DNA from: Vandammella animalimorsus
GTDB taxonomy: Bacteria; Pseudomonadota; Gammaproteobacteria; Burkholderiales; Burkholderiaceae_C
Length of the DNA stretch: 64,000 bases
Assembly: GCF_002285285.1 (NCBI RefSeq)
Contig: NZ_NSJF01000004.1
Span: forward strand, 62,001 to 126,000
Direction: 5' to 3'
Below the pieces are notes generated by a model. That model had not been told where the DNA came from. It saw only the letters and a program-made list of their open reading frames with translations, and did not search any database. This document shows positions 29,365 through 45,496 of the stretch, piece after piece. Numbering within the stretch: the first letter of the stretch is position 1; the number at the start of each line of letters is the position of its first letter. The position numbers and the translations under genes are program-made.

Positions 29365-29487
29365 AACTGGCTACACTGCGCCAGACGCGCGCGGGCCCCA
29401 ACGTCAGAACCTGTGCAAAGAAGAACCTGCCGCATGGCAGGCGTGCGGCCTGCGCACCGACCCACGCACGACGAGGAGGAAACACCG

Positions 29488-30264
29488 ATGAAGCCCTTGC
29501 TGACCTCGCTGGCCTGCGCACTGGCCTTTGCCCTGCCTGGCGCCGCCGCGGCCAAGACCTTGAAAGTGGCCGTGGCCGCCGAGCCCTACCCGCCGATGTA
29601 CTACCCCTCGCCCTCGGGCCAGTGGCAAGGCTTCGAGGTCGATCTGGCCCAGGCCGTGTGCAAGGCCGCCAAGCTCGATTGCGAGGTGACGGCCGTGGCC
29701 TGGGACGGGCTCATCCCCTCGCTCAACGGCGGCCACATCGACATGGTCATGGCCTCGATGTCCATCACCGAGGAGCGCCGCAAGCAGATCGACTTCTCCA
29801 ACAAGTACTACGACGTGCCGCCGCTGATCGTCTCGGCCAAGGAGGTGCCGGTGGACAAGAGCCCGGCCAGCTTCAAAGGCAAGACCATTGGCGTGCAGGT
29901 GGCCACCATCCATGCCGCCTACGCGCAAAAGCACTTCGCACCCGCTGGCGCCACCGTCAAGGTCTATCAGAACCAGGACGAGGCCAACAGCGACCTGGTC
30001 TCCGGCCGCGTGGACGCCACCATGGCCGACACCGACGCCATGCAAACCTTCCTCAAGAGCGACGGCGGCAAGGCCTGCTGCGAGGCGCGCGGCAACCCCG
30101 CGCCCGACCCCGGCGTGCTCGGCCAGGGCGTGGGCATTGGCCTGCGCAAGGGCCAGGATGCGCTGCGCGAGCAGCTCAACGCCGCCATCCAGTCGCTGCG
30201 CGACAGCGGCGAATACCAGCGCATCGCCCAGAAATACTTCAGCTACGACGTCTACGGCCAGTAA
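29488..30264 (+). CDS. Polar amino-acid type ABC transporter substrate-binding protein
   Basis: 258 residues with a signal peptide ending at GAAAA-K. It has the family 3 binding-protein layout: LKVAVAAEPYPPMYYP, GFEVDLAQAVCKAAKLDCEVTAV, WDGLIPSLNGGHIDMVMASMSITEERRKQIDFSNKYY. These match the lysine/arginine/ornithine and histidine binding group. GAGGAGGA at 29473-29480 sets the start. Two permeases follow. The flavin amine dehydrogenase immediately downstream suggests the ligand could be an amine or N-modified amino acid; that is inference. Confidence 0.9.
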   Translation: MKPLLTSLACALAFALPGAAAAKTLKVAVAAEPYPPMYYPSPSGQWQGFEVDLAQAVCKAAKLDCEVTAVAWDGLIPSLNGGHIDMVMASMSITEERRKQIDFSNKYYDVPPLIVSAKEVPVDKSPASFKGKTIGVQVATIHAAYAQKHFAPAGATVKVYQNQDEANSDLVSGRVDATMADTDAMQTFLKSDGGKACCEARGNPAPDPGVLGQGVGIGLRKGQDALREQLNAAIQSLRDSGEYQRIAQKYFSYDVYGQ

Positions 30265-30310: not shown

Positions 30311-31057
30311 ATGGATTTTCTCTCTGCGCTCCTGCCCGGCGTTGACTGGCAGCTGCTGGCCTATGCCCCGCCCGGCTGGGGCAAGGTGCTGCTGCAGGGC
30401 CTGCTCAATTCGCTCATCGTTGCCGGCGGCGGCTATGCGCTGGGCTTGCTGCTGGGCGTGGGCGGGGCCATGGCCAAGCTGCGCGGCGGGCCGCTGGCGC
30501 GCGATCTGGCTGAGGCGTACACCACCATCGTGCGCGGCATGCCCGAGCTGATCCTCATCCTGATCCTCTACTACCTGGGCACCGATCTGCTCAACCGCGC
30601 GCTGGCGCTGATGGGCATGGGGCGCGTGCAGGCCAGCGGCCTGGTCGCTGGCATTGCCGTCATTGCCATTGTGCAGGGCGCCTACGCCACCGAGGTCATC
30701 CGCGGCGCCATTCAGGCCATCGCGCCCGGCGAGCACGACGCCGCGCAGGCCTTTGGCATGAGTGCGCGCCAGGCGCTGTGGCGCATTACCTTGCCGGGCA
30801 TGCTGCCCTTTGCCATCCCCGGCCTGGCCAATCTGTGGCTGATCGCCACCAAGGACACGGCCCTGCTGGCCGTGGCCGGCTTCACCGAGCTGACCCTGGC
30901 CACGCGCCAGGCCGCCGGCACGACCAAGGCCTACCTGCTGTTCTTCTGCGCCGCCGGGCTGCTCTACCTGGCCATCACCTTGCTGTCCAACCAGCTCTTT
31001 GCCGCGCTGGAGCGCCGCGCGCGCCGTGGCCAGCGCCCGGAGGCCGCACGTGGTTGA
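30311..31057 (+). CDS. Amino-acid ABC transporter permease, HisQ type
   Basis: 248 residues with about five membrane helices. It opens with the HisQ-like LLQGLLNSLIVAGGGYALGLLLG, has YTTIVRGMPELILILILYY, and an EAA loop around GEHDAAQAFGMSARQALWRITLP. It is the first permease of the set, 46 bp after the binding protein, and overlaps the second permease by 8 bp. Confidence 0.9.
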   Translation: MDFLSALLPGVDWQLLAYAPPGWGKVLLQGLLNSLIVAGGGYALGLLLGVGGAMAKLRGGPLARDLAEAYTTIVRGMPELILILILYYLGTDLLNRALALMGMGRVQASGLVAGIAVIAIVQGAYATEVIRGAIQAIAPGEHDAAQAFGMSARQALWRITLPGMLPFAIPGLANLWLIATKDTALLAVAGFTELTLATRQAAGTTKAYLLFFCAAGLLYLAITLLSNQLFAALERRARRGQRPEAARG

Positions 31058-31853
31058 ACACATGGCACACAGCGCCCAGCGCCAGGCCGCCGCCTTCTGG
31101 CAACCGCATCGGCGCGTGCTGGCCGCCCTGGCCTTGCTGGCGTTGGCGGCCATTGCCTGGCAAGGCCAATGGGCCTGGGTGCCGCAGTACGCCCGGGCGC
31201 TGCTGGCCGGCGTGGGCGTAAGCCTGGCCATGCTGGTCGGCAGCGTGGTGCTGGGCTTTGCCTTTGCACTGCCGCTGGGCATTGCCCAGGCGGCCGGCCC
31301 CTGGTGGCTGCGCCTGCCCGCGCGCAGCTTTTGCACCGTGATCCGCGGCACGCCGCTGCTGCTGCAGCTGTGGCTGGTTTATTACGGCCTGGGCTCGCTG
31401 TTTCCGCTCATCCCGGAAATCCGCAGCTCGGCGCTGTGGCCCTATCTGCGCCAGGCCTGGCCCTATGGGCTGTTTGCACTGACCGTCTCCTTCGCCGCCT
31501 ACGTGGGTGAGGTCATGCGCGGCGCCTTTGTCGGCGTGCCCCGGGGCGAGCTGGAGGCCGGCTGGGCCTGCGGCATGACGCGCTGGCAGGTCTGGCGCCG
31601 CATCTGGCTGCCGCGCGCCATCCAGCGCAGCCTGCCCACGCTGGCCGGCGAGACCGTGCTGCAGCTCAAGTCCACCCCGCTGGTGGCCACCATCACCGTG
31701 GTCGATGCCTATGGCGTCATCAACATGGTGCGCCAGAACACGCTGCTGACCTACGAGCCGCTGCTGCTGCTGGCGGGCATCTACCTGCTGCTCACGCTGG
31801 TGCTGGTATTGCTGCTGAGGCGCCTGGAGCGCAGGCTGCAGCCCGTGGCCTGA
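31050..31853 (+). CDS. Amino-acid ABC transporter permease, HisM type
   Basis: 267 residues from a GTG at 31050, chosen because GGAGG at 31039-31043 is well spaced for it; the ATG at 31062 is the alternative. It has FCTVIRGTPLLLQLWLVYYGLG and the EAA loop ELEAGWACGMTRWQVWRRIWLP. It completes the membrane channel. No ATP-binding subunit gene of this class is in the neighbourhood, so the ATPase must come from elsewhere. Confidence 0.9.
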   Translation: MVEHMAHSAQRQAAAFWQPHRRVLAALALLALAAIAWQGQWAWVPQYARALLAGVGVSLAMLVGSVVLGFAFALPLGIAQAAGPWWLRLPARSFCTVIRGTPLLLQLWLVYYGLGSLFPLIPEIRSSALWPYLRQAWPYGLFALTVSFAAYVGEVMRGAFVGVPRGELEAGWACGMTRWQVWRRIWLPRAIQRSLPTLAGETVLQLKSTPLVATITVVDAYGVINMVRQNTLLTYEPLLLLAGIYLLLTLVLVLLLRRLERRLQPVA

Positions 31854-31901: not shown

Positions 31902-33998
31902 ATGCGAGACCCCCGCTACGACATTCTTTTTGAACCTGTACGCATCGGCCCCGTCACCACCCGCAACCGCTTCTACCAGGTGCCCCATTGCAGCGGCATG
32001 GGGCACCGCTACCCTGCGGCCGAGCAACGCCTGCGCCAGATCAAGGCCGAGGGCGGCTGGGGCGTTGTGAGCACGCAGGAGACCGAGATCCACCCCTCCT
32101 CGGACATCTCCCCCTCCAACCAGCAGCGCCTGTGGGACGAGCGCGACATCGACCGCCTGCAGGCGCTGACCGAGGCCATCCACGTCCACGGCAGCCTGGC
32201 GGCCATCCAGTTGGCGCACAACGGCATCCACACCGCCAACCGCCTCAGCCGCATCGCCCCTTACGGCCCGGCCGACATGCTGGTGGACACCGAAGACCCG
32301 GTGCAGGCGCACGCCATGGACAAGAGCGACATCCGCGCCTTCCGCCAATGGCACCGCGACGCCGCGCTGCGCGCCAAGCGCGCCGGCTTCGACATCGTCT
32401 ACGTCTATGCCGGGCACGACATGACGCTGCTGCAGCACTTCTTGCTCAAGCGCTACAACCAGCGCAGCGACGAATACGGCGGCAGTTTCGAAAATCGCCT
32501 GCGCCTGTTCCGCGAAGTGCTGGCCGACACCCGCGAGGCCGTGGGCGATGCCTGCGCCGTGGCCGTGCGCTTTGCCGTCGAGGAGCTGCTGGGCCAGGAC
32601 GGCCTGACCCACGACGGTGAAGGCCGCGACGTCATCACCGCCCTGGCCGACGAGCCCGACCTGTGGGACGTGAACCTCTCCAACTGGGCCAACGACAGCC
32701 AGACCGCGCGCTTTGCGCAAGAAGGCTTTCAAGAGCCCTACACCGCCTTCGTCAAATCCCTCACGCGCAAGCCCGTGGTCGGCGTGGGCCGCTACACCTC
32801 GCCCGATGCCATGGTGCGCGCCATCCGCAGCGGCATCTTCGACCTGGTGGGCGCAGCCCGCCCCTCCATTGCCGACCCCTTCCTGCCGCAAAAAATCGAG
32901 CAAGGCCGCATCGACGAGATCCGCGAATGCATCGGCTGCAACATCTGCACTGCAGGTGACAACACCGTCGTGCCCATGCGCTGCACGCAAAACCCCACCA
33001 TCGGCGAAGAAGCGCGCAAAGGCTGGCACCCGGAAATCATCGCCCCGCTGCCGCGCCCGGCCTCGGTGCTCATCGTCGGCGGCGGCCCGGCCGGCCTGGA
33101 AGCCGCGCGCGCCCTGGCCCAGCGCGGCGCCGAAGTCACCATCGCCGATGCCGCGCGGCAATGGGGCGGGCGCGTCAGCCTGGAGGCGCGCCTGCCGGGC
33201 CTGGCCACCTGGGCGCGCGTGCGCGACTGGCGCCTGGGCCAGCTGCGCCAGGCCAGCAACGTGCAGATGTACCTGGACAGCCCGCTGAGCGCGCAGGACG
33301 TGCTCGCCTTTGGCATGACCCACGTCGCCATCGCCACTGGCGCGCACTGGCGCTGCGACGGCGTGGGCCGCGTGCACCGACAGCCCCTGCCCTTTCTGGG
33401 CGGCGCCAACGCCGCGCGCGTGGTCGGCGTCGATGCCCTGCTCGAACAGGGCGCGGCCGCCGTGCATGCCGCCCTGGCCGCCAACCACGCCCAGGGCGCG
33501 CCAGCCCAAGGCCCCGTGGTCGTGTTCGACGACGACCGCTACTACATGGCCAGCGTGCTGGCCGAGCTGCTGGCGCGCGCCGGGCTGCAGGTGCACTTCG
33601 TCACCCCCGCGCCCATCGTCGCGCCCTGGAGCGAACACACGCTGGAGCAGCCGCGCATCCACCGCCGCCTGCTGGAGCTGGGCGTGCACATCACCTTGCT
33701 GCACCAGCTGGCCGGCTGGCAGGGCGATCGGCTCGAACTGGCCTGCGTCTACAGCGGCCGCCTGCAACCCATCGCCTGCGCCTGCCTGGTGCCCGTCACC
33801 GCCCGCCTGCCCAACCACGGCCTGTGGCAGGCCCTGCAAGCGGCCAGCCACAGCTGGGCCGAACACGGCATTGCCAGCGTCGAGCGCATCGGCGACTGCC
33901 TGGCCCCCGGCATCATCGCCGCCGCCAACTACGCCGGCCATGCCTATGCCCGCCAGCTTCTGCAAACGCCAGCGCCCGACTGCGAGGCTTACCGCTGA
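31902..33998 (+). CDS. FMN/4Fe-4S amine dehydrogenase of the trimethylamine dehydrogenase family
   Basis: 698 residues. The N-terminal TIM barrel is old-yellow-enzyme-like and numbers almost as trimethylamine dehydrogenase does: Cys30 (VPHC), the site of covalent 6-S-cysteinyl FMN, and the Tyr169/His172 pair (VYVYAGH) are present, with Asp265 in NWANDS. The iron-sulfur cysteines are 343, 346, 349 and 361 (ECIGCNICT...RCTQNP). A dinucleotide-binding domain follows (VLIVGGGPAGLEAA). Residue 60 is Glu where trimethylamine dehydrogenase has Tyr, so trimethylamine is unlikely; dimethylamine, histamine or another secondary or primary amine fits better. Electrons normally pass to an electron-transfer flavoprotein, not encoded here. 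Confidence 0.9.
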   Translation: MRDPRYDILFEPVRIGPVTTRNRFYQVPHCSGMGHRYPAAEQRLRQIKAEGGWGVVSTQETEIHPSSDISPSNQQRLWDERDIDRLQALTEAIHVHGSLAAIQLAHNGIHTANRLSRIAPYGPADMLVDTEDPVQAHAMDKSDIRAFRQWHRDAALRAKRAGFDIVYVYAGHDMTLLQHFLLKRYNQRSDEYGGSFENRLRLFREVLADTREAVGDACAVAVRFAVEELLGQDGLTHDGEGRDVITALADEPDLWDVNLSNWANDSQTARFAQEGFQEPYTAFVKSLTRKPVVGVGRYTSPDAMVRAIRSGIFDLVGAARPSIADPFLPQKIEQGRIDEIRECIGCNICTAGDNTVVPMRCTQNPTIGEEARKGWHPEIIAPLPRPASVLIVGGGPAGLEAARALAQRGAEVTIADAARQWGGRVSLEARLPGLATWARVRDWRLGQLRQASNVQMYLDSPLSAQDVLAFGMTHVAIATGAHWRCDGVGRVHRQPLPFLGGANAARVVGVDALLEQGAAAVHAALAANHAQGAPAQGPVVVFDDDRYYMASVLAELLARAGLQVHFVTPAPIVAPWSEHTLEQPRIHRRLLELGVHITLLHQLAGWQGDRLELACVYSGRLQPIACACLVPVTARLPNHGLWQALQAASHSWAEHGIASVERIGDCLAPGIIAAANYAGHAYARQLLQTPAPDCEAYR

Positions 33999-34098
33999 AC
34001 CTGCTCACCCTCGTTGAACGGGCAGCGGGGCAGCGCCACAATCAATGGCCCGACAATCGATCCTTCTGTCTTTCCAACCCTTTCAACCCACCAGCACC

Positions 34099-34720: not shown

Positions 34721-37492
34721 TCACTGGCGCTGGCGGCGGCGCAGGCCAAACACACCCAGCAGTGCGCTCAGGCCCAGCAGCGACCAGAGGTTGAGTGCCG
34801 GCACAGGCACAGTCGAAGGCAACACAATGGCCTGCACATTCAAGCGCACCGAGGCGCGCACGCAGGGGGCGGTGCCGCCTGGGCCGGCGCACATCTGGTA
34901 CTCGAAGTCCACCGTGCCTGTGAAGCCTTGCACCGGCGTGAAGGTGAAGGTGCCATCGTTGTTGAAGACCAGTGTGCCCTGGGTTGCAGGGTCAGGCACG
35001 GGCGTGCCGGGCACCAGCGAGAACACAGCGCCGGCCGGAACAACATCATTGCCTTTGACATCGCCCTGGATGGGCTGCCCCGGAGCCACCGTGAACTCGT
35101 CGGCCTGGGCGACAGGGGCGCTTGACACCTTGATGGTCACGGTCGTGTCTGCACTGCAATGCGTGCCCGCCTCGTTGCAGACCTTGTAGCTGAAGGTGGC
35201 ATCACCGACGAAGTCCTGATCCGGCTTGAAGCTGAAAGTGCCATCCGGGTTGACGGTGGCCGTGCCGTTCGTGGCGCTGCCGGGCACCAGCGAGAACTTG
35301 GCGTTGTTCGGCTTATCGTCGTTGGCGCCCAGGTTGCGCGATGCATCGGCGGGCAGCTCGGCGTTCGGCGCCGTGCTGTAGCTGTCGGCAGTGGCCTTGG
35401 GATTGACCTTGATGGTCACCGTGGCCTGCGCACAGGGCGCTGTGCCGCCAGGGCCAGAGCACACTTCGTAGGTGAAGCTGGCATCGCCAGAGAAACCTGC
35501 CGCCGGCGTGAAGGTGTAGGTGCCATCGGCATTGACCGTGGCCGTGCCCTGCGCCGCATTCGGGGCGGTCTTGAGCTTGTAGGTCGCGCCAGCTGGCACT
35601 GTGTCGTTGTCCTTCAGGTTGCCGTTGGCTGGCTGACCCACCGTGGTTGTGGCACTGTCGTCCGCCACTTGTGGTGCTGTAGCGCCAACTTTCACCGTCA
35701 CAGTCGTGTCTTCGCTGCAATGCGTGCCTGCCTCGTTGCAGACCTTGTAGCTGAAGGTGGCATCACCGACGAATCCCTGCGCAGGCGTAAAGCTGAATGT
35801 GCCATCCGGCTCGACCGTGGCCGTGCCATTCGTGGCGCTGCCGGACACCAACGAAAACTTGGCGTTGTTCGGCTTGTCGTCGTTGGCGCCCAGGTTGCGC
35901 GATGCATCGGCGGGCAGCGCGGTGTTCAGCGTCGTGCTGTAGCTGTCGGCTGTCGCCTTGGGATTGACCTTGACGTTCACTGTGGCCTCCGCACAGGGCG
36001 CTGTGCCGCCAGGGCCAGAGCACACTTCGTAGGTGAAGCTGGCATTGCCAGAGAAGCCTGCCGCCGGCGTGAAGGTGTAGGTGCCATCGGCATTGACCGT
36101 GGCTATGCCCTGCGCCGCGTGCGGGACAATCCTGAGCTTGTAGGTCGCGCCAGCTGGCACTGTGTCGTTGTCCTTCAGGTTGCCGTTGGCTGGCTGGCCC
36201 ATTGTGGTTGTGGCTTCGTCCGGCTGTGCATTGGGGCCCACGATGACGGTAGCCAAGGCCGTCTTGCAGTTGGCCGGGTTGGTGGCTGGCTGGTTGCAGA
36301 CCTGGTAGGTGAAGCTGGCTTCGCCAACAAAATCGGCCGCAGGCTCAAAGCGGAAGCTGCCATCGGCATTGACGGTGGCAGTGCCACCGGTTGCCTGGCC
36401 CTGCAGCGAGTACACGGCCCCAGGCATGATGCCCAAGTCGTTGGCGCCCAGGGCATTGGGGGCGTCGGCAGCCACGTTCAGGGCTTGCCCGTGGGGCGTG
36501 CTGTAGCTGTCGGGCGTTGCCTCCAGCTGCGCCTGGCGCACCGTCAGGTTGCGGATTTCATGGTGGTTGATGGCCCCGCCGGTGCTGGAGCTAAAGCCCA
36601 TTTTGAAGGTGGCTGGCAAAGCAGCCATGCCATCGACGGGGTTGCCATTGGCTTGGGTCAGCGGCAACTGATCGACGATGGTCTGCCCTTCGAGGATGAC
36701 CGTCAGCTTGACCTCTGGGGCTGGCGTGATGACGATGCGCACGTTTTTGGCGCCATCGCGGTTGCCCGTGAAGATCGTCGTATCGGGCGGCGGCATCGTC
36801 GGCATCTTGTTGTGCAGCAGCTTGAAGCCGGTGGTTTGGTCCTGCGCATCGCCAGGCGCAAAGCCCTTCAGGTGCCCGGAGCCGCGCACAGCAACCCGAT
36901 GCTGCAGGCGCTCACATGCCGTCACATTCGGCCCCACCTCACAAACACCATATGTGGGATGGGAGAAGTTGCCGTATTCGTCAAAGCCAATGCCGACGTA
37001 ACCGCTTTTGACCCCTGCCCCGTAATTTCCCCAGGAATAGCCCAGGCTGCCGCCGCGAGCGCCGACCACCGGGTCAGCCTCTGCGCCGTCGATCAGGTAG
37101 AAGGTGAAGCCGTCCCCGCCAACACCACTGTTCGTGCCCCAGGTGGCGTACTGGAAGCTCACATCCACGCCTTTGCTGGAGCTGAATGCTTGTTTGTACA
37201 ACGCCGTTCCTGCTTGCGCCTGCGCCGCCTTGGTCAGGCGCAACCAGCCTTCGCCTGGCGCATCTATGCCGCCAGGTGCGGCCGTCAGCACGGCGGGGTC
37301 GGACGCATTGCCTCCAACAGGCCCCAGCAGGTTCCAGTCGGGCGCTGTTGCATTGCGAAAGGTTTCATCAATGCTCAGCGGCGGCGTTTGTGCCTGCACA
37401 GCGCCCGCCACGCCCAGCAAGGCCAGGGCAGCGCCCCAGTGCCAGTGCATGGGCCGCTGCCCTGTAGGTTCTGATGTTTCGGCAAAAGGCAT
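34721..37492 (-). CDS. Secreted lectin-like protein with six Ig-like repeats and an IPTL-CTERM-like tail
   Basis: 923 residues from the ATG at 37492, chosen for a GAGGAGA site 8 bases upstream. After a signal peptide (cleavage near AVQAQ) comes an L-type lectin-like domain (about residues 36-320; VSFQYATWG, DGFTFYLIDGAEADP, GYVGIGFDEYGNFS). Six repeats of about 90 residues follow, each with a TATVNADGTYTFTPAAGF-type core and a pair of cysteines (VCSGPGGTAPC, VCNEAGTHC). The last 25 residues are a short motif VPALNLW, a hydrophobic helix and an RRRQR tail, the layout of IPTL-CTERM sorting signals. It is likely exported and cell-surface anchored or processed, perhaps an adhesin. Two repeats were duplicated in tandem. 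Confidence 0.8.
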   Translation of the reverse strand: MPFAETSEPTGQRPMHWHWGAALALLGVAGAVQAQTPPLSIDETFRNATAPDWNLLGPVGGNASDPAVLTAAPGGIDAPGEGWLRLTKAAQAQAGTALYKQAFSSSKGVDVSFQYATWGTNSGVGGDGFTFYLIDGAEADPVVGARGGSLGYSWGNYGAGVKSGYVGIGFDEYGNFSHPTYGVCEVGPNVTACERLQHRVAVRGSGHLKGFAPGDAQDQTTGFKLLHNKMPTMPPPDTTIFTGNRDGAKNVRIVITPAPEVKLTVILEGQTIVDQLPLTQANGNPVDGMAALPATFKMGFSSSTGGAINHHEIRNLTVRQAQLEATPDSYSTPHGQALNVAADAPNALGANDLGIMPGAVYSLQGQATGGTATVNADGSFRFEPAADFVGEASFTYQVCNQPATNPANCKTALATVIVGPNAQPDEATTTMGQPANGNLKDNDTVPAGATYKLRIVPHAAQGIATVNADGTYTFTPAAGFSGNASFTYEVCSGPGGTAPCAEATVNVKVNPKATADSYSTTLNTALPADASRNLGANDDKPNNAKFSLVSGSATNGTATVEPDGTFSFTPAQGFVGDATFSYKVCNEAGTHCSEDTTVTVKVGATAPQVADDSATTTVGQPANGNLKDNDTVPAGATYKLKTAPNAAQGTATVNADGTYTFTPAAGFSGDASFTYEVCSGPGGTAPCAQATVTIKVNPKATADSYSTAPNAELPADASRNLGANDDKPNNAKFSLVPGSATNGTATVNPDGTFSFKPDQDFVGDATFSYKVCNEAGTHCSADTTVTIKVSSAPVAQADEFTVAPGQPIQGDVKGNDVVPAGAVFSLVPGTPVPDPATQGTLVFNNDGTFTFTPVQGFTGTVDFEYQMCAGPGGTAPCVRASVRLNVQAIVLPSTVPVPALNLWSLLGLSALLGVFGLRRRQRQ
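35134..36215. repeat. In-frame tandem duplication, unit 561 bp
   Basis: Two near-identical stretches offset by exactly 561 bp (187 codons), for example the shared core at 35301-35350 and 35862-35911. Each unit spans two Ig-like domains of the secreted protein. Differences are scattered single bases, so the duplication is fairly recent. Confidence 0.85.
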
Positions 37493-37530
37493 GGCTGCTC
37501 TCCTCATAAAAATGCAAGTTGCAAACAGAT

Positions 37531-37553
37531 GGCACTGCACGTTGTGCAGTGCC
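37531..37553. promoter_or_regulatory. Perfect hairpin in the leader of the secreted-protein gene
   Basis: GGCACTGCA / TGCAGTGCC, a 9-bp perfect stem with a 5-base loop, 38 bases upstream of the start codon and directly next to the MITE-like element. It could be a regulator site or an RNA hairpin in the 5' leader. No T-run follows on the minus strand, so it is not a standard terminator. Confidence 0.5.
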
Positions 37554-37828: not shown

Positions 37829-39880
37829 TCAGCGCAGTTTGCGCAAGCGGCTGTAGAGCGTGGAGCGCGCAATGCCCAGCTGGCGCGCTGCAGCCGAGAG
37901 ATTGCCTTGGCATTGGGCGATGACGCGCTGCATGGTCTGTATCTCCAGAGTTTGCAGATCGTCTGGCGGCGCAGCGGCCGGGCCGCCATGGGGTGCGCCG
38001 AGTATGGCCTGGCCCTGCGCGTCCGCACGAGCGGGCCAGGCTGACGCCAGCCCCGGCTCACAGCGCAAATCGGCGGCGTCGATCCAGCCGCTGCAGCCCT
38101 GCTGCGGGCTGCAAAGCAGCAGGTTTTCCACCGTGTTGCGCAGCTGGCGGATGTTGCCGGGCCAGCTCCAAGTCTGTAGCTGCTGCAGGGCCACAGGCGT
38201 GAACTGTGGCAGTGTGCGCCCAGTTTTTTCAGCGCAGCGCTGTGCGAAATGGGCTACCAACGCGGGGATGTCCTCGGCGCGTTCGCGCAAAGGCGGAATG
38301 CGCAGGCGCGTGACGGCAATGCGGTAGAACAGATCCTGGCGGAAGTGTCCAGCCTGGATTTGCGTCTCCAAGTCGCGGTTGGTCATGGCAATGAGTTGCA
38401 CGTCCACGGCGCGGCCGCTGTGACTGCCAATGCGCCAAACCTGACGGTCTTCCAACACGCGCAGCAAGTAGGGCTGCAGGTTCAGTGGCATTTCGCCGAT
38501 TTCGTCCAGGCACAGCGTGCCGCCATGGGCCGCTTCGAGTTTGCCAGCGCGGCCCGTGGGCGCAGCGCCGGTGAAGGCGCCGCGCTCGTAGCCAAAGATT
38601 TCGCTGCCGATCAGCTCCTGCGGCAAGCCGCCACAGTTGACGGGCACGAAGGGCGATTGCTCGCCCCGGCTGGCAGCGTGGATGGCCTGGGCGAACAGCT
38701 CTTTGCCGGCGCCTGTCTCGCCTTCGATCAGCACCGGCAGGCCGGCCTGGGCGATTTGCACGGCCTGCTCAATGGCGCGGCGCAGCGCTGCACTGTGGCC
38801 CACCAGGGCATCGAAGGCTGGCGGGCGCTGCCAGCTTGCTGGGGCGCAGCGCACAGCGGGGGCTGCGACGCTGGGCTGCAATGCAACAGCGCCGGCGGCG
38901 GACTCTGCCTCTGGCGCGGCAGCTTCCTGCAAGCCCGGCGGCTGAATGCGGCGCAGGCGCTGGGGCAGCGCAGCCCAGACGCCAATGGGCTCATGCCCGC
39001 TGTGCACGATGTGCCAATGCGCCTCGGGCCAGAGTGTGTGCAATGCCAACAGCCATTGCGCAGGCGGGGTACGCGCCAAAAGCGCCAGCCGCCCCTGGGC
39101 ATCGGCGGCCAGCTGCGCTTGCATGGGCGTGTCGCGCAGTGCATGCGGCGCATTGCTGTGGATGAGCTGGCCCAGATGATCAAACGCGACGATGGTACGG
39201 CCCTGCCAATGCATCAGTTGATCAAGCAGGTGCTGCAGGATGCACTGGTGCTGCTCTTGGCGCAGCTGGCGCAATTGGCCATGGATTTGCTGCGCCAGCA
39301 CGGTGGCATAAGCCAGGCTGTTCTCATTGGCGAAGCTGGCTGCGCTGGAGATATCGACCACGCCCAGCAAACGCCCGCCATCGGGGTCGCGCACTGGCGC
39401 TGCGGCGCAACTCCAAGGCTGCACGTGCTGGCAGAAGTGCTCAAAGGCATGGATGCGCACTGGCGCATTGACGGCCAGCGCCGTGCCGATGGCATTGGTG
39501 CCGATGTCGCGCTCACGCCAGCAGCCGCCTTGTTGCAGGCCGATCTCCTGCCCCTGCAGCAAGGTTCGGCTGTCACCGGTGGCGCGCAACACTGCCCCTT
39601 GCATGTCAGAGAGGATGAGCATGGACTGGCTGCTGGCCAGCCATTTCTGCGCTTGCTTGAGCACCGGGTCGGCCACGCGCAGCAGTTCCGCACTTTGCAA
39701 TGAAAGCGCGCGCCTGGCCTGCAGATCCAGTACCTGGGTGCGGGCCGATTGCACTGGAGCCTGCTGTGCGCGCGAACGCTTCCACGACGCCAGCACCACG
39801 GGGCGCACTGCCGTGCTGATGGGGCCATCGCTCATGAAGTCTTCCCACGCCGAGCGCACGCTGGTCTGGGGGTTGTGCAT
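37829..39880 (-). CDS. acxR: Sigma-54-dependent activator of acetone carboxylase (AcxR/AcoR type)
   Basis: 683 residues from the ATG at 39880 with GGGAG just upstream; the frame extends another 103 codons but without protein character. A GAF-type sensor occupies the N-terminal half ([41 protein letters not shown]). The AAA+ domain begins near residue 358 with Walker A GETGAGKE (387-394) and the sigma-54 contact loop GAFTGA (434-439). A Fis-type helix-turn-helix ends the protein (659-683). It is divergent from acxABC, whose promoter is a perfect -24/-12 site, so it is very probably the acetone-responsive activator. The inducer is inferred from context. Confidence 0.9.
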
Positions 39881-40098
39881 AGGGTTCTCCCGCTCAGAAC
39901 ACGGCTTTGGCGCTGGAAGCTGAGCGCACAGGCCGCTGTAGCGGATGCATGGCCTGCGTGCGCCCTCACCGTGTCTGGCTTTTTTGGCGGCCTGCCGCGG
40001 CCGCCTTTGCCTCTCTTGGCCCATCAGTCTGCCCAGCGGGCTGCGCGCGGGCAATGGGGTTTTCACCTGTCGGCCGACGCCGGCCCGGCTGACGAAAG

Positions 40099-40115
40099 TG
40101 TTCGGAAACCGGACA
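40099..40115. promoter_or_regulatory. Candidate upstream activator site 1 for AcxR
   Basis: TGTTCGG-AAA-CCGGACA, an inverted repeat with 6 of 7 arm positions complementary, about 115 bp upstream of the -24/-12 promoter. It sits immediately next to a second, similar palindrome. Enhancer-like sites at this distance are typical for sigma-54 activators. Confidence 0.6.
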
Positions 40116-40139
40116 GCTGTCTGGCGAAATCCGTACAGC
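40116..40139. promoter_or_regulatory. Candidate upstream activator site 2 for AcxR
   Basis: GCTGTCTGG ... CCGTACAGC, an imperfect inverted repeat with 7 of 9 arm positions complementary. Its centre is about 20 bp, two helical turns, from that of site 1, so two dimers could bind on the same face of DNA. Confidence 0.55.
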
Positions 40140-40227
40140 AAGACATCCCCAGCCACGCCTCGGGCCAATCTGCGCGCCCTGCCCGCCATTGGGAGGGCCT
40201 GGGACTTTCCCTGAGCCGCGCAGCGGG

Positions 40228-40388: not shown

Positions 40389-42542
40389 ATGAGCAAAACC
40401 GCCAATCCATCACGGCAGGTGCAGGTGCTGGGCATCGACGCCGGCGGCACCATGACCGATACCTTTTTCGTCGACAGCAAGGGCGAGTTCGTCGTGGGCA
40501 AGGCCCAGAGCACGCCGGACAACGAGGCGCGCGGGCTGATCGAGTCCAGCATCGACGCGCTGGGGCTGTGGGGCATGCAGCTGGAGAATGCGCTGCCGCA
40601 GTTGCAGACAGGCGTGTACTCGGGCACGGCCATGCTCAACCGCGTGGTGCAGCGCAAGGGGCTGAAGACCGGGCTGATCGTCAATGCGGGGTGTGAGGAC
40701 TTTCACCGCATGGGCCGCGCCGTGCAGGCCTACCTGGGATTTGCCTATGAGGACAGGCTGCACCTGAACACGCACTACTACGACGAGCCGCTGGTGCCCC
40801 GGCGCCTGACGCGCGGCGTGGTCGAGCGCGTGGACATGTTCGGCACGGTGGTGATCCCGCTCGATGAAGACAGCGCCCGCAAGGCCGCCAAGGAGCTGAT
40901 CGAGCAGGAGGTGCAGGGCATCGTCATCAGCCTGCTGCACTCGTACAAGAACCCCGCGCACGAGCGGCGCGTGCGCGACATCGTGCAGGAGGAGGTGAAG
41001 AAAAGCGGCAAGAACATTCCGGTGTTCGCCTCCACCGACTACTACCCGGTGCGCAAGGAGTCGCACCGCACCAACACCACCATCCTGGAGGCGTTCGCGG
41101 CCGAGCCTTCGCGCCAGACGCTCAACAAGATCACCACCGCCTTCAAGGACAAGGGCTCGAAGTTCGATTTCCGCGTCATGGCCACGCACGGCGGCACGAT
41201 TTCCTGGAAGGCCAAGGAGCTGGCGCGCACCATCGTCTCTGGCCCGATCGGCGGCGTGATTGGCGCCAAGTACCTGGGCGAGGTGCTGGGCTACAAGAAC
41301 ATCGCCTGCTCGGACATTGGCGGCACCTCGTTCGACGTGGCGCTGATCACGCAAGGCGAGATGACCATCAAGAACGACCCGGACATGGCGCGCCTGGTGC
41401 TGTCGCTGCCGCTGGTGGCCATGGACTCGGTGGGCGCGGGCGCGGGCAGCTTCATCCGCATCGACCCCTACACCAAGGCCATCAAGCTGGGGCCCGATTC
41501 GGCCGGCTACCGAGTGGGCGTGTGCTGGGCCGACAGCGGCATCGACACCATCACCGTGTCGGACTGCCACATGGTGCTGGGCTATCTGAACCCGGACAAC
41601 TTCCTGGGCGGGGCGCTGAAGCTGGACAAGCAGCGCGCCTATGACGCCATCAAGAAGCAGCTGGCCGACCCGCTGGGCCTGAGCGTGGAGGACGCGGCCG
41701 CCGGCGTGATCGAGCTGCTCGACGCGGAGCTGCGCGATTACCTGCGCTCGATGATTTCGGGCAAGGGCTACAACCCGGGCAGCTTCGTGTGCTTCTCCTA
41801 CGGCGGCGCAGGCCCGGTGCACACCTATGGCTACACCGAGGGGCTGGGCTTCGAGGACGTGATCGTGCCGGCCTGGGCGGCTGGCTTCTCGGCCTTTGGC
41901 TGCGCGGCGGCCGATTTCGAGTACCGCTACGACAAGAGCCTGGACATCAACCTGGCCACCGACGCCAGCGAGGCCGAACGCATTGCAGCGGCCAAGACCT
42001 TGCAGGATGCCTGGGCCGAGCTGACCGAGCGCGTGCTCGAAGAGTTCAAGCTCAACGGCTACACGCCCGATCAGGTCGAGCTCACGCCCGGCTACCGCAT
42101 GCAGTACCGCGGCCAGCTCAACGACCTGGAGATCGAGTCGCCCATCAAGAAGGCCGCCACCGAGAACGATTGGCTGGCGCTGGAGGAAGCCTTCAACGAC
42201 ACCTATGGCCGCGTGTATTCGGAGTCGGCGCGCTCGCCCGAGCTGGGCTACTCGGTCACCGGCGCCATCATGCGCGGCACCGTGCCCATTCCCAAGCCGC
42301 GCATCCCCAAGGAGGAGCTGGGCAGCGAGATTCCCGAGAAGAGCGCCTACCTGGGCACGCGCAAGTTCTATCGCAAGAAGAAGTGGGTGGATGCGCAGCT
42401 CTACAAGATGGAATCGCTCAAGCCCGGCAACCGCATCACCGGCCCGGCGGTGATCGAGTCCGACGCCACCACCTTCGTGGTGCCCGATGGCTTCGAGACC
42501 TGGCTGGACGGCCACCGCCTGTTCCACCTCAAGGAAGTCTGA
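40389..42542 (+). CDS. acxA: Acetone carboxylase beta subunit
   Basis: 717 residues, the length known for AcxA. It belongs to the HyuA/oxoprolinase ATPase family: GIDAGGTMTDTFFVD at the N-terminus, GTAMLNRVVQRKGLKTGLI, IGGTSFDVALITQGEM and CFSYGGAGPVHTYGY. AcxABC condenses acetone with bicarbonate to acetoacetate using ATP; this subunit provides the ATP-dependent activation. AGGAG at 40378-40382 sets the start. It is the first gene of the sigma-54-driven operon. Confidence 0.95.
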   Translation: MSKTANPSRQVQVLGIDAGGTMTDTFFVDSKGEFVVGKAQSTPDNEARGLIESSIDALGLWGMQLENALPQLQTGVYSGTAMLNRVVQRKGLKTGLIVNAGCEDFHRMGRAVQAYLGFAYEDRLHLNTHYYDEPLVPRRLTRGVVERVDMFGTVVIPLDEDSARKAAKELIEQEVQGIVISLLHSYKNPAHERRVRDIVQEEVKKSGKNIPVFASTDYYPVRKESHRTNTTILEAFAAEPSRQTLNKITTAFKDKGSKFDFRVMATHGGTISWKAKELARTIVSGPIGGVIGAKYLGEVLGYKNIACSDIGGTSFDVALITQGEMTIKNDPDMARLVLSLPLVAMDSVGAGAGSFIRIDPYTKAIKLGPDSAGYRVGVCWADSGIDTITVSDCHMVLGYLNPDNFLGGALKLDKQRAYDAIKKQLADPLGLSVEDAAAGVIELLDAELRDYLRSMISGKGYNPGSFVCFSYGGAGPVHTYGYTEGLGFEDVIVPAWAAGFSAFGCAAADFEYRYDKSLDINLATDASEAERIAAAKTLQDAWAELTERVLEEFKLNGYTPDQVELTPGYRMQYRGQLNDLEIESPIKKAATENDWLALEEAFNDTYGRVYSESARSPELGYSVTGAIMRGTVPIPKPRIPKEELGSEIPEKSAYLGTRKFYRKKKWVDAQLYKMESLKPGNRITGPAVIESDATTFVVPDGFETWLDGHRLFHLKEV

Positions 42543-42580
42543 ACCCGCATCTGGACCGCATTCGACAAGGAGTTTTCACC

Positions 42581-44899
42581 ATGACAAAGATCAAACCCAA
42601 TGAAGCGATGCGCGGCATCGTGCGCGGCGGCGAAACCCTCAAACAGCACCGCGACCGCATCATGGCCGCCACCCGCAAGACCGGCCATTACGCCGGGCTG
42701 GAGCAAATGAGCCTGCGCGACAAGGAGCCCATCCTCTACAACAAGCTGTTCTCGCGCCTGCGCGCTGGCGTGGTCGATGCGCGCGAGACGGCCAAGAAGA
42801 TTGCGGCTTCGCCCATCGTGGAGCAGGAAGGCGAGCTGTGCTTTACGCTCTACAACGCCGCTGGCGATTCGCTGCTGACCTCCACGGGCATCATCATCCA
42901 CGTGGGCACCATGGGCGCGGCCATCAAGTACATGATCGAGAACGACTGGGAGTCCAACCCAGGCATCCAGGACAAGGACATCTTCTGCAACAACGATTCG
43001 CTGATCGGCAACGTCCACCCCTGCGACATCCACACGATCGTGCCCATCTTCTGGGAGGGCGAGCTGGTGGGTTGGGTTGGCGGTGTGACGCACGTGATCG
43101 ACACGGGTTCGGTGGGACCCGGCTCGATGTCCACCGGCCAGGTGCAGCGCTTCGGTGACGGCTATTCGATCACCTGCCGCAAGATCGGCGCCAACGACGA
43201 GCTGTTCCGCGATTGGCTGCACGAGAGCCAGCGGATGGTGCGCACCACGCGCTACTGGATGCTGGATGAGCGCACCCGCGTGGCCGGCTGCCACATGATC
43301 CGCAAGCTGGTCGAGGAAGTGATCGAACAGGAAGGCATCGAGAACTACTGGAAGTTTGCCTACGAGGCGGTCGAGCACGGCCGCATCAGCCTGCAAAACC
43401 GCATCAAGGCCATGACGGTGCCCGGCACCTATCGCCAGGTCGGCTTCGTGGACGTGCCCTACAACCACGAGGATGTGCGCGTGCCCTCGGACTTCGCCAA
43501 GGTAGACACCATCATGCACTCGCCCTCGGAGATGACCATCCGCGCCGATGGCACTTGGCGGCTGGACTTCGAAGGCTCCAGCCGCTGGGGCTGGCACACC
43601 TACAACGCCCATCAGGTCAGCTTCACCTCAGGCATCTGGGTGATGATGACGCAGACGCTGATTCCGTCAGAGATGATCAACGACGGAGCGGCCTACGGCA
43701 CCGAGTTCCGTCTGCCCAAGGGCACCTGGATGAACCCTGACGACCGGCGCGTGGCGTTTTCGTATGCCTGGCACTTCCTGGTCTCGACCTGGACCTCGCT
43801 GTGGCGCGGCCTGTCGCGTTCGTACTTCAGCCGTGGCTACCTGGAAGAAGTCAACGCCGGCAACGCCAACACCTCCAACTGGCTGCAGGGCGGGGGCTTC
43901 AACCAGTACAACGAAATCCACGCCGTCAACAGCTTCGAGTGCGCGGCCAACGGCATTGGCGCCTCGGCCTACGCCGATGGCCTGAGCCACGCCGCCGCCA
44001 TCTGGAACCCGGAAGGCGATATGGGCGACATGGAGATCTGGGAGCTGGCCGAGCCGCTGGTCTATCTGGGCCGCCAGATCAAGGCTTCATCGGGTGGTTC
44101 CGGCAAGTACCGCGGCGGCTGCGGCTGGGAGAGCCTGCGCCTGGTCTGGAATGCCAAGGACTGGACGATGTTCTTCATGGGCAATGGCAACATGAGCAGC
44201 GACTGGGGCCTGATGGGGGGCTTTCCGGCCGCATCGGGCTACCGTTTCGAGGCGCATGACACCGGCCTCAAGCAAATCATTGCCGATGGCAAGCCCATCC
44301 CGCTGGGCGGCGACATCGATCCGGGCGAGCGCAGCTATGAAAAGCTCATCCCCGGCGCCAAGGTCAAGCGCGACAAGCAAGCCATCACCACCGAGGCCAT
44401 GTTCAAGGACTACGACCTGTACCTGAACACCATGAAAGGCGGCCCAGGCTTTGGCGACCCGCTGGACCGTGACCCGCAGGCGGTGGTGGCCGATCTGGAA
44501 GGCGGCTACATCCTGCCGCGCTTTGCCGAGAGCATCTACGGCGTGATCGCCAAGGAAAACGCCGACGGCACCTGGAGCTGCGACGAAAAAGCCACCCAAG
44601 CCAAGCGCAAGGACATCCTCAAGCAGCGCCTGGCGCGCGCCGTGCCCACGCGCGAGTGGATGAAAACCGAGCGCGAAAAAATCCTCGCCAAGGATGCAGG
44701 CACGCAAGTGCAGCAGATGTATGCCTCGTCCTTCAAGCTCGGCCCGCGCTTTGAGGAGTCGTTCCGCAAGTTCTGGGATCTGCCCAAGGACTGGCAGCTG
44801 CGCGAGGAGGACATCGGCATCCCGCACTACGGCTCCACACACCACATGGACATCTCCGAACTGCCGGACGTGCACATCGTGCAATTCGTGGAGGAATAA
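42581..44899 (+). CDS. acxB: Acetone carboxylase alpha subunit
   Basis: 772 residues, close to the known AcxB length. It is of the HyuB family: LYNAAGDSLLTSTGIIIHVGTMG, NDSLIGNVHPCDIHTIVPIFW, VGGVTHVIDTGSVGPGSMSTG. In the complex this subunit carries the carboxylation and metal (Mn) chemistry. AAGGAG lies 12 bases before the ATG at 42581. It follows acxA by 38 bp and precedes acxC by 90 bp. It cannot be confused with acetophenone carboxylase given the gene set and sizes. Confidence 0.95.
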   Translation: MTKIKPNEAMRGIVRGGETLKQHRDRIMAATRKTGHYAGLEQMSLRDKEPILYNKLFSRLRAGVVDARETAKKIAASPIVEQEGELCFTLYNAAGDSLLTSTGIIIHVGTMGAAIKYMIENDWESNPGIQDKDIFCNNDSLIGNVHPCDIHTIVPIFWEGELVGWVGGVTHVIDTGSVGPGSMSTGQVQRFGDGYSITCRKIGANDELFRDWLHESQRMVRTTRYWMLDERTRVAGCHMIRKLVEEVIEQEGIENYWKFAYEAVEHGRISLQNRIKAMTVPGTYRQVGFVDVPYNHEDVRVPSDFAKVDTIMHSPSEMTIRADGTWRLDFEGSSRWGWHTYNAHQVSFTSGIWVMMTQTLIPSEMINDGAAYGTEFRLPKGTWMNPDDRRVAFSYAWHFLVSTWTSLWRGLSRSYFSRGYLEEVNAGNANTSNWLQGGGFNQYNEIHAVNSFECAANGIGASAYADGLSHAAAIWNPEGDMGDMEIWELAEPLVYLGRQIKASSGGSGKYRGGCGWESLRLVWNAKDWTMFFMGNGNMSSDWGLMGGFPAASGYRFEAHDTGLKQIIADGKPIPLGGDIDPGERSYEKLIPGAKVKRDKQAITTEAMFKDYDLYLNTMKGGPGFGDPLDRDPQAVVADLEGGYILPRFAESIYGVIAKENADGTWSCDEKATQAKRKDILKQRLARAVPTREWMKTEREKILAKDAGTQVQQMYASSFKLGPRFEESFRKFWDLPKDWQLREEDIGIPHYGSTHHMDISELPDVHIVQFVEE

Positions 44900-44989
44900 G
44901 CCTCGCCCCATGCGCAAGAGGCCGCTGCTGCCCTATTCGGGGCGGCAGCCCATCCAACCCCATCAATTGGAAAAAGACAGGAGACCAAC

Positions 44990-45496
44990 ATGGCATACGA
45001 ACGCGCCAAAATTGCCGACCTCATCGACGGCACCATCGACCGCGACACCCTGCACCAGATGCAGTCCACCCCCAAAGACCCGGAGCGCTTTGAGACCTAC
45101 ATCTCCATCCTGCAGGAGCGGGTGGAGTGGGACGACAAAATCATCCTGCCGCTGGGCCCCAAGCTCTACGTCGTGCAGGAAAAAGGCAGCAACCGTTGGG
45201 TCATCAAATCCGAGGCCGGCCACGTGTTCTGCGACTGGAAGGAGAACTGGAAGCTGCACGCCGTGGTCTACGTGCGCGATACGCAAGACAAACTCGATGA
45301 GCTCTACCCCAAGCTCATGTCGCCCACGCAGGGCTGGCAGGTTATCCGCGAGTACTACTGCCCCAAGAGTGGCGCACTGCTGGACGTGGAAGCGCCCACA
45401 CCGTGGTACCCGGTGATCCACGACTTCGAGCCCGACATCGAAGCCTTCTACTCCGAAACCCTGGGCCTGCCCGTGCCTGAGTGCAGCAACCCTTAA
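44990..45496 (+). CDS. acxC: Acetone carboxylase gamma subunit
   Basis: 168 residues, exactly the known AcxC length. It has the small-subunit sequence MAYERAKIADLIDGTID, the central GHVFCDWKENWKLHAVVYVRD and REYYCPKSGALLDVEAPTPWYPVIHDFEPD, with cysteines that could bind a metal. It is essential in the alpha2-beta2-gamma2 enzyme. AGGAG lies at about 44980. A hairpin follows the stop, marking the operon end. Confidence 0.95.
   Translation: MAYERAKIADLIDGTIDRDTLHQMQSTPKDPERFETYISILQERVEWDDKIILPLGPKLYVVQEKGSNRWVIKSEAGHVFCDWKENWKLHAVVYVRDTQDKLDELYPKLMSPTQGWQVIREYYCPKSGALLDVEAPTPWYPVIHDFEPDIEAFYSETLGLPVPECSNP

Follow-up and report, generated by a model that had tools for sequence, protein, structure and literature searches.

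In a 64,000-nucleotide stretch of the Vandammella animalimorsus genome (NCBI RefSeq assembly GCF_002285285.1, contig NZ_NSJF01000004.1, positions 62,001 to 126,000 of the forward strand; hereafter the window), the open reading frame (ORF) at 31,902–33,998 very probably encodes an amine dehydrogenase, and three genes for an amino-acid importer lie upstream of it. An operon linking a solute-binding protein, two permeases and this dehydrogenase is new here. We propose, with a probability of roughly 40%, that the enzyme is linked to electron-transferring flavoprotein (ETF) and acts on an arginine-type or other basic amino acid, or on an amine derived from one. The same enzyme occurs with the same importer in unrelated bacteria, which argues for arginine-like compounds rather than trimethylamine. 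An earlier note on the gene, made from its sequence, had described a trimethylamine dehydrogenase (TMADH) relative with a changed substrate pocket and had not considered the importer genes, which are the best clue to the substrate.

The ORF runs on the plus strand for 698 residues, from an ATG at 31,902 to a stop at 33,998. Its product combines an Oxidored_FMN barrel (PF00724, residues 9–338), pyridine-nucleotide-like domains C-terminal to it (Pfam) and a cysteine cluster motif, as is characteristic of the TMADH/histamine dehydrogenase superfamily. A phmmer search of the PDB ranked the histamine dehydrogenases 6de6 (Rhizobium sp. 4-9) and 3k30 (Nocardioides simplex) first, followed by 6l6j, a record titled 6-hydroxypseudooxynicotine amine oxidase HisD (Pseudomonas geniculata N1), and by the TMADH 1djn. 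The AlphaFold2 model, built from 41 window and locus sequences, has a mean pLDDT of 92.2 and matches 6l6j (Z 58.3 over 667 residues, 51% identity), 3k30 (57.1), the TMADH 2tmd (56.0, 42% identity) and 6de6 (55.7); across HisD, both histamine enzymes and TMADH the Z scores range from 55.6 to 58.3, with some adjacent rows nearly tied. Sequence identity is 49–52% to the histamine/pseudooxynicotine enzymes versus 41–43% to TMADH. Judged by sequence, the protein thus belongs to the histamine/pseudooxynicotine branch. The gene and the codons discussed below are as follows.

31,902–33,998, plus strand: predicted flavin mononucleotide (FMN)/[4Fe-4S] amine dehydrogenase of the histamine/pseudooxynicotine branch, 698 amino acids (ORF, phmmer, Pfam, fold match)
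31,989–31,991, plus strand: Cys30 codon, expected site of 6-S-cysteinyl FMN attachment; aligns with Cys30 of 1djn, 6de6 and 3k30, Ala in 6l6j
32,079–32,081, plus strand: Glu60 codon; Tyr in TMADH, Gln in histamine dehydrogenases, Glu in HisD
32,115–32,123, plus strand: Ser72–Gln74 codons; Phe72 and Glu74 in histamine dehydrogenases (pocket positions from PMC10180351)
32,406–32,423, plus strand: Tyr169–Met174 codons; triad residues Tyr169/His172, and Met174 in place of Phe176 (6de6) or Tyr181 (3k30)
32,928–32,984, plus strand: cluster motif C343-x2-C346-x2-C349-x11-C361 with Asp353 (alignment)

In the alignment to 1djn, 6de6, 3k30 and 6l6j, which also contained the window-gene duplicates L001 and L086, we found Cys30, Tyr169, His172, Asp265 (equivalent to TMADH Asp267) and the cysteines C343, C346, C349 and C361 all present. 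The earlier note had listed Cys30, Tyr169, His172 and four iron-sulfur cysteines, and the solved relatives bear it out: the protein has the residues needed for covalent FMN, for the cluster and for the triad, and Cys30 is expected to be the point of attachment of a covalent 6-S-cysteinyl FMN. The printed alignments are free of gaps between residues 30 and 60, so the assignment of Glu60 is secure, as that note had read it against the Tyr of TMADH. Residue 60 is Tyr in 1djn, Gln in 6de6 and 3k30, and Glu in 6l6j and in the window protein; for dimethylamine dehydrogenase the earlier note gives Gln.

The pocket is unlike that of TMADH at further places that the note had not mentioned. Trp355 has no counterpart; a one-residue gap stands there with Asp353 adjacent, as in the histamine enzymes. 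Of the aromatic bowl (Tyr60, Trp264, Trp355) only one residue is retained, as Trp262; Glu60 stands in place of Tyr60, and Trp355 has no equivalent. Trp355 and the three-residue insertion before Trp264 are absent from all rows printed except TMADH, L092 and L093, and the latter two, TMADH-like proteins of the same-family sample, have Tyr60 as well. Despite the common cofactor residues, triad and fold, a trimethylamine or dimethylamine dehydrogenase is therefore hardly credible, and trimethylamine was ruled out as substrate on the pocket residues. A different cationic amine, as first suggested, would be the likeliest substrate.

That the gene encodes an ordinary histamine or agmatine dehydrogenase appears improbable, even with 49–52% identity to both histamine dehydrogenases and with Cys30, Tyr169, His172, Trp262, Asp353 and the lack of Trp355 in common. 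According to PMC10180351, the N. simplex enzyme oxidises agmatine too, with Km values similar for agmatine (37) and histamine (31). Relative to the Rhizobium enzyme, the window pocket carries the changes Q60E, F72S, E74Q, N110H and F176M (residue 174 of the window protein), and is identical at Ile69, Tyr171, Trp263 and Asp354. Thus five of seven pocket positions compared with both histamine enzymes differ (Gln60, Phe72, Glu74, Asn110, Phe/Tyr176), the exceptions being Trp263 and Asp354; the differences at 72, 74, 110 and 174 go beyond the earlier note. Four of the nine saturation positions given in PMC10180351 differ (60, 72, 110 and 176), and a fifth, Asp265 of the Rhizobium enzyme, pairs with window Asn264, the window Asp265 lying one residue on, as in N. 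simplex. The same paper reports that active clones from libraries at Phe176, Tyr171, Trp263, Asp265 and Asp354 were all unsubstituted, that nothing better than weak clones came from the libraries at Gln60 and Ile69, and that the histamine/agmatine ratio shifted in variants at positions 72 and 110. Taken together, the rebuilt pocket and the library results make it unlikely that the window enzyme works well on histamine, and they favour a non-aromatic cationic substrate. Arg114 was considered as a carboxylate-binding residue and set aside: it is invariant in the 35 closest rows, yet present in several others.

Six short peptides taken from the window protein, scanned against GTDB contigs, yielded 74 relatives. 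The family alignment has 110 rows, including the window protein and the four solved references; it is a similarity-driven sample of related, not independent, rows, in which one gene is counted twice (L071 and L175). Fragments below 600 amino acids (L074, L078, L080, L085) and the duplicates L001 and L086 were left out of this alignment and of the tree. Residue 60 is Glu in 69 rows, Gln and Tyr in 16 each, Met in 4, His in 3, and Ile and Ala in one each; Glu is retained in 59 of 92 rows after thinning at 95% identity. All 35 rows with at least 65% identity (the window included) have Glu60 and form one clade with support 1.0. Glu60 is therefore a subfamily trait, the commonest state in the sampled branch and present in HisD. 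The earlier note's picture of an individual change within a TMADH did not survive this comparison; its cofactor residues, altered pocket and other cationic amine did. As a separate observation on this family, L177, L178 and L184 (one family, f63) carry a tandem pair of dehydrogenases, one with Gln60 or Glu60 and one with Tyr60, and in Ensifer L046 and L029 tandem copies flank a TetR gene (BetI-type in L029).

The occurrence of Glu60 in HisD brings in another explanation, namely that the enzyme is an N-demethylating dehydrogenase, releasing methylamine or formaldehyde, for an N-methylated amino acid or amine, and that the importer carries the methylated compound. We regard this as a serious competitor, if on the unlikely side. 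HisD, the solved Glu60 relative, bears the title of 6-hydroxypseudooxynicotine amine oxidase, and PMC5500553 and PMC7688666 describe Pno of Agrobacterium tumefaciens S33 as freeing methylamine from 6-hydroxypseudooxynicotine. HisD/Pno resemble the window protein in Glu60, Tyr169, His172, Trp262, the cluster cysteines, length and fold. HisD differs in having Ala at position 30 and Val at that of Asp353, as well as Asp74, so that its pocket is not that of the window protein; in the solved HisD the FMN is non-covalent, and HisD/Pno stand in a nicotine gene cluster (both from PMC7688666) and not beside an amino-acid importer. BetI-type TetR genes adjoin the dehydrogenase in L024, L016 and L029, but their scores are under the curated BetI cut-offs.

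Other neighbourhoods weigh against an arginine-like substrate. One Glu60 relative (L037) stands behind a glycine-betaine-type (OpuAC-type) importer, another (L180) beside an MTTB-family gene and a third (L185) beside one of the same cluster and a Rieske oxygenase, while next to the close relative L016 the opposite strand carries genes for the alpha and gamma subunits of sarcosine oxidase. Such betaine, MTTB and sarcosine oxidase neighbours suggest methylated amines, but those of the betaine and MTTB kinds belong to more distant relatives with 54–58% identity.

We propose an arginine-type substrate on account of the genes upstream of the dehydrogenase.

29,488–30,264, plus strand: predicted periplasmic solute-binding protein, HisJ/LAO type; the ORF is open from a GTG at 29,413, and the ATG at 29,488 was taken as start
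30,311–31,057, plus strand: predicted ABC permease 1, HisQ type (Pfam and curated-model matches, locus comparison)
31,062–31,853, plus strand: predicted ABC permease 2, HisM type; the ORF is open from 30,999, and the ATG at 31,062 was taken as start

From the binding protein through the two permeases to the dehydrogenase, the intergenic gaps are 46, 4 and 48 bases. The importer resembles the HisJ-HisQ-HisM-P system in its families (SBP_bac_3 and two BPD_transp_1 permeases) and in key HisJ ligand residues; unlike that system, it matches the curated His/Arg/LAO models below their cut-offs and has no ATPase gene in its operon. Neither an ATPase nor a repressor gene was found within the window operon, and the two nearest ATPases of the window genome (58% and 55%) adjoin other importer genes. 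A promoter scan returned 0 promoters, and a terminator scan 6 terminators against 3.5 expected.

An identical gene order was found in two more Vandammella-group genomes (G086, locus L012, and G783, locus L013), in Pseudochrobactrum (L017, L019), in a Brucellaceae metagenome-assembled genome (MAG; L018), in Brucella of the Ochrobactrum type (L022, L024) and in L077. Identity to the window is 59–61% for the binding protein, 65–71% for permease 1 and 67–68% for permease 2. An ATPase and a TetR gene precede the operon in the Pseudochrobactrum and Brucella-type loci; Pfam assigns the L024 TetR to the BetI type, its scores lying below curated BetI cut-offs. The region of L077, a record titled Bacillus subtilis SK6B4, is nearly identical to Pseudochrobactrum L017 and L019, and the assembly is probably mislabelled or contaminated. 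In Brucella daejeonensis L025, a close relative, the dehydrogenase directly follows genes for another SBP_bac_3 importer, for an FAD enzyme of the DAO family and for a permease of the amino-acid type.

Importer and dehydrogenase might also be neighbours by an accident of transfer and serve separate pathways. The window importer comes with no ATPase gene, and of the 93 loci searched only those named from the Vandammella group, Brucella and the Brucellaceae have the importer (at least 58% identity) in their flanks, which weighs against a functional link; the conserved linkage may moreover stem from one joining event. It nevertheless recurs in three genomes of the Vandammella group, in two each of Brucella and Pseudochrobactrum and in the MAG of the Brucellaceae, with linked binding proteins as divergent as 59–61% identity and with the short gaps of the window, and we consider an accident quite unlikely.

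The ligand positions of the binding protein were chosen after those of HisJ/LAO structures. Read at these positions, the window protein retains the HisJ-equivalent Tyr14, Ser70, Ser72, Arg77 and Asp161 and an acid at position 11, and so carries the signature for a cationic alpha-amino acid (R77/D161, acid near 11). With binding proteins from arginine clusters it shares 15 of 18 such positions (L157) or 16 of 18 (L166). It thus appears to keep the residues for a cationic alpha-amino acid, including those for an alpha-carboxylate, which histamine and agmatine do not have; this speaks against an ordinary histamine or agmatine dehydrogenase as well.

Where else this type of importer occurs was read from a phylum sample, in which the binding protein matched at 1e-60 in 34 of 397 genomes; neighbourhoods were read for 17 of the 34, with crude ORF calling. 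Of these 17 neighbourhoods, 14 contain a gene from the cluster of 2-ketoarginine decarboxylase (5-guanidino-2-oxopentanoate decarboxylase), a representative decarboxylase scoring 741 bits with NF005712 against a cut-off of 500. Aminotransferases dependent on pyridoxal phosphate (PLP) were seen in at least 5 of the 17, and the TetR type likewise in at least 5. Dimethylargininase-like genes were found in 12; their frequency among these importer relatives makes methylarginines possible ligands, which favours an N-methylated substrate. The representatives of these genes score below curated cut-offs, a point against the arginine reading.

We then compared operon and decarboxylase in 16 genomes searched at 1e-80, a set that does not comprise L034, L012, L013, L018 and L077; here a close dehydrogenase is one with at least 65% identity. 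The decarboxylase was found in none of the five genomes with the dehydrogenase–importer operon (G000, G787, G788, G791, G793) and in eight of the ten with a close dehydrogenase and no operon (G784, G785, G786, G789, G790, G794, G795, G796); in the other two, G792 and G536, it was not found at 1e-80. The sixteenth genome, G734, has the decarboxylase and a dehydrogenase only 57% identical. The hypergeometric chance of this split, calculated by hand for related genomes, is 21/3003, or about 0.007; because of that relatedness it is only a pointer. All eight decarboxylase genomes have a closely related importer within the decarboxylase cluster, with permeases 64–70% identical to those of the window; these clusters contain an aminotransferase in 8/8 cases and a dimethylargininase-like gene in 6/8. 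With the dimethylargininase query, matches were obtained in 9 of the 16 genomes, two of them with the operon (G791, G793). In a tree of joined binding-protein and permease sequences, the dehydrogenase-linked importers form one clade (1.0), whose sister (0.967) consists of Brucella importers of the decarboxylase cluster. Tree and cluster contents suggest that the dehydrogenase probably became linked a single time to an importer from the arginine cluster, and that the unit reached Vandammella later.

The gene content of the host stands against an arginine route of a known kind. At 1e-80 the window genome gave no match to the 2-ketoarginine decarboxylase, and none was found there to the dimethylargininase query. 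Nor did it match the ureohydrolase family PF00491, for which the same search was positive in 9 of 14 control genomes, or the SpeA helical-bundle domain PF17810, positive in 5 of 14. With none of these four gene types, no familiar arginine or agmatine route would be completed in the host. An agmatine route was rejected as the main explanation on the lack of ureohydrolase and SpeA domain (other decarboxylase types were not searched). A dimethylargininase supplying dimethylamine to the enzyme was rejected on the lack of a host match to a query that had worked in other genomes.

The mechanism that we infer for an arginine-type substrate, including cotranscription, the state of the cofactor, the direction of the chemistry, the substrate itself and a borrowed ATPase, would be the following. 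The dehydrogenase would be cotranscribed with a HisJ/HisQ/HisM-type importer of a cationic alpha-amino acid, which would use the ATPase of another system. In the cytoplasm, Glu60 and Asp353 may grip the non-aromatic cationic end of the substrate, and 6-S-cysteinyl FMN on Cys30 would take hydride or electrons from the carbon beside its amine. By analogy with TMADH, histamine dehydrogenase and Pno, electrons would pass from FMN to the [4Fe-4S] cluster and on to ETF, and hydrolysis of the imine would give an aldehyde and ammonia or a methylamine. An ETF alpha gene is present in the window genome. Downstream in Pseudochrobactrum L017 there is an aldehyde dehydrogenase above the cut-off of the succinate-semialdehyde subfamily, and beyond it an ORF that is presumably a class III aminotransferase; in S. 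meliloti an annotated succinate-semialdehyde dehydrogenase stands two genes ahead of the dehydrogenase. These neighbouring aldehyde-handling genes fit with an aldehyde product. Pno passes electrons to EtfAB, and the oxygen of its aldehyde product derives from water, according to PMC7688666.

In the dehydrogenase tree the window protein and those of the two sister genomes fall inside a group with support 0.996, the innermost split having only 0.134. Other members are alphaproteobacterial by record title, except L077 (the record titled Bacillus subtilis) and L175 (the same gene as L071). A departure from this pattern is L074, a fragment from a Myxococcota MAG that has 65% identity over residues 2–426 and was too short for the tree. 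In a sample of the host family (Comamonadaceae, as L012 and L013 are titled), the dehydrogenase was matched at 1e-100 in 9 of 399 genomes, with more than 60% identity only in the window genome and one other; four other members of the genus in the sample gave no match at this threshold, and a further member, G783, has the operon. This patchy presence, together with the alphaproteobacterial company in the tree, suggests that the dehydrogenase operon was acquired by horizontal transfer from Rhizobiales. No clean empty insertion site was seen in sister genomes, and the base composition of the operon is not distinct. A flanking methyltransferase gene was found in six of ten genus genomes, three of them without the operon; in the stretch examined, these three have no other tested window gene, except glyS in one. 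In the sister genomes L012 (10,113–13,511) and L013 (8,568–11,862), about 3.3–3.4 kb separate the dehydrogenase from an FKBP-type isomerase gene, versus 46 bases in the window (33,999–34,044). In these 3.3–3.4 kb lie genes of the tripartite tricarboxylate transporter type, of which TctC was tested in L013 and TctA in L012.

Further downstream, the window encodes a repeat protein (34,721–37,540, minus strand) with six Big_9/cadherin-like repeats, an IPTL-CTERM motif and a weak, below-cut-off lectin-like match at the N-terminus. An acetone-carboxylase-like set (40,389–45,496) comprises Hydantoinase_A, Hydantoinase_B and acetone carboxylase gamma (PF08882) consecutively, in front of which lies a sigma-54 activator gene (37,829–40,189) on the opposite strand.

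It is conceivable, albeit doubtful, that these genes represent a catabolic route not described before. In such a route an iron-sulfur dehydrogenase with covalent FMN would directly oxidise an amino acid of the arginine family, or a methylated form of it; the enzyme would have acquired its importer and repressor family from the arginine transaminase/2-ketoarginine decarboxylase cluster and would replace that cluster in decarboxylase-less genomes. Substrates known for members of the enzyme family are trimethylamine, histamine and a product of nicotine breakdown. Glu60 enzymes bear no more specific name than FAD-dependent oxidoreductase or NAD(P)-binding protein in the annotated plasmid records examined. 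The shift of an importer between the arginine cluster and the dehydrogenase provides a short, testable list of substrates and, Glu60 being the commonest type among the sampled relatives, a known substrate would help to name many of these enzymes.

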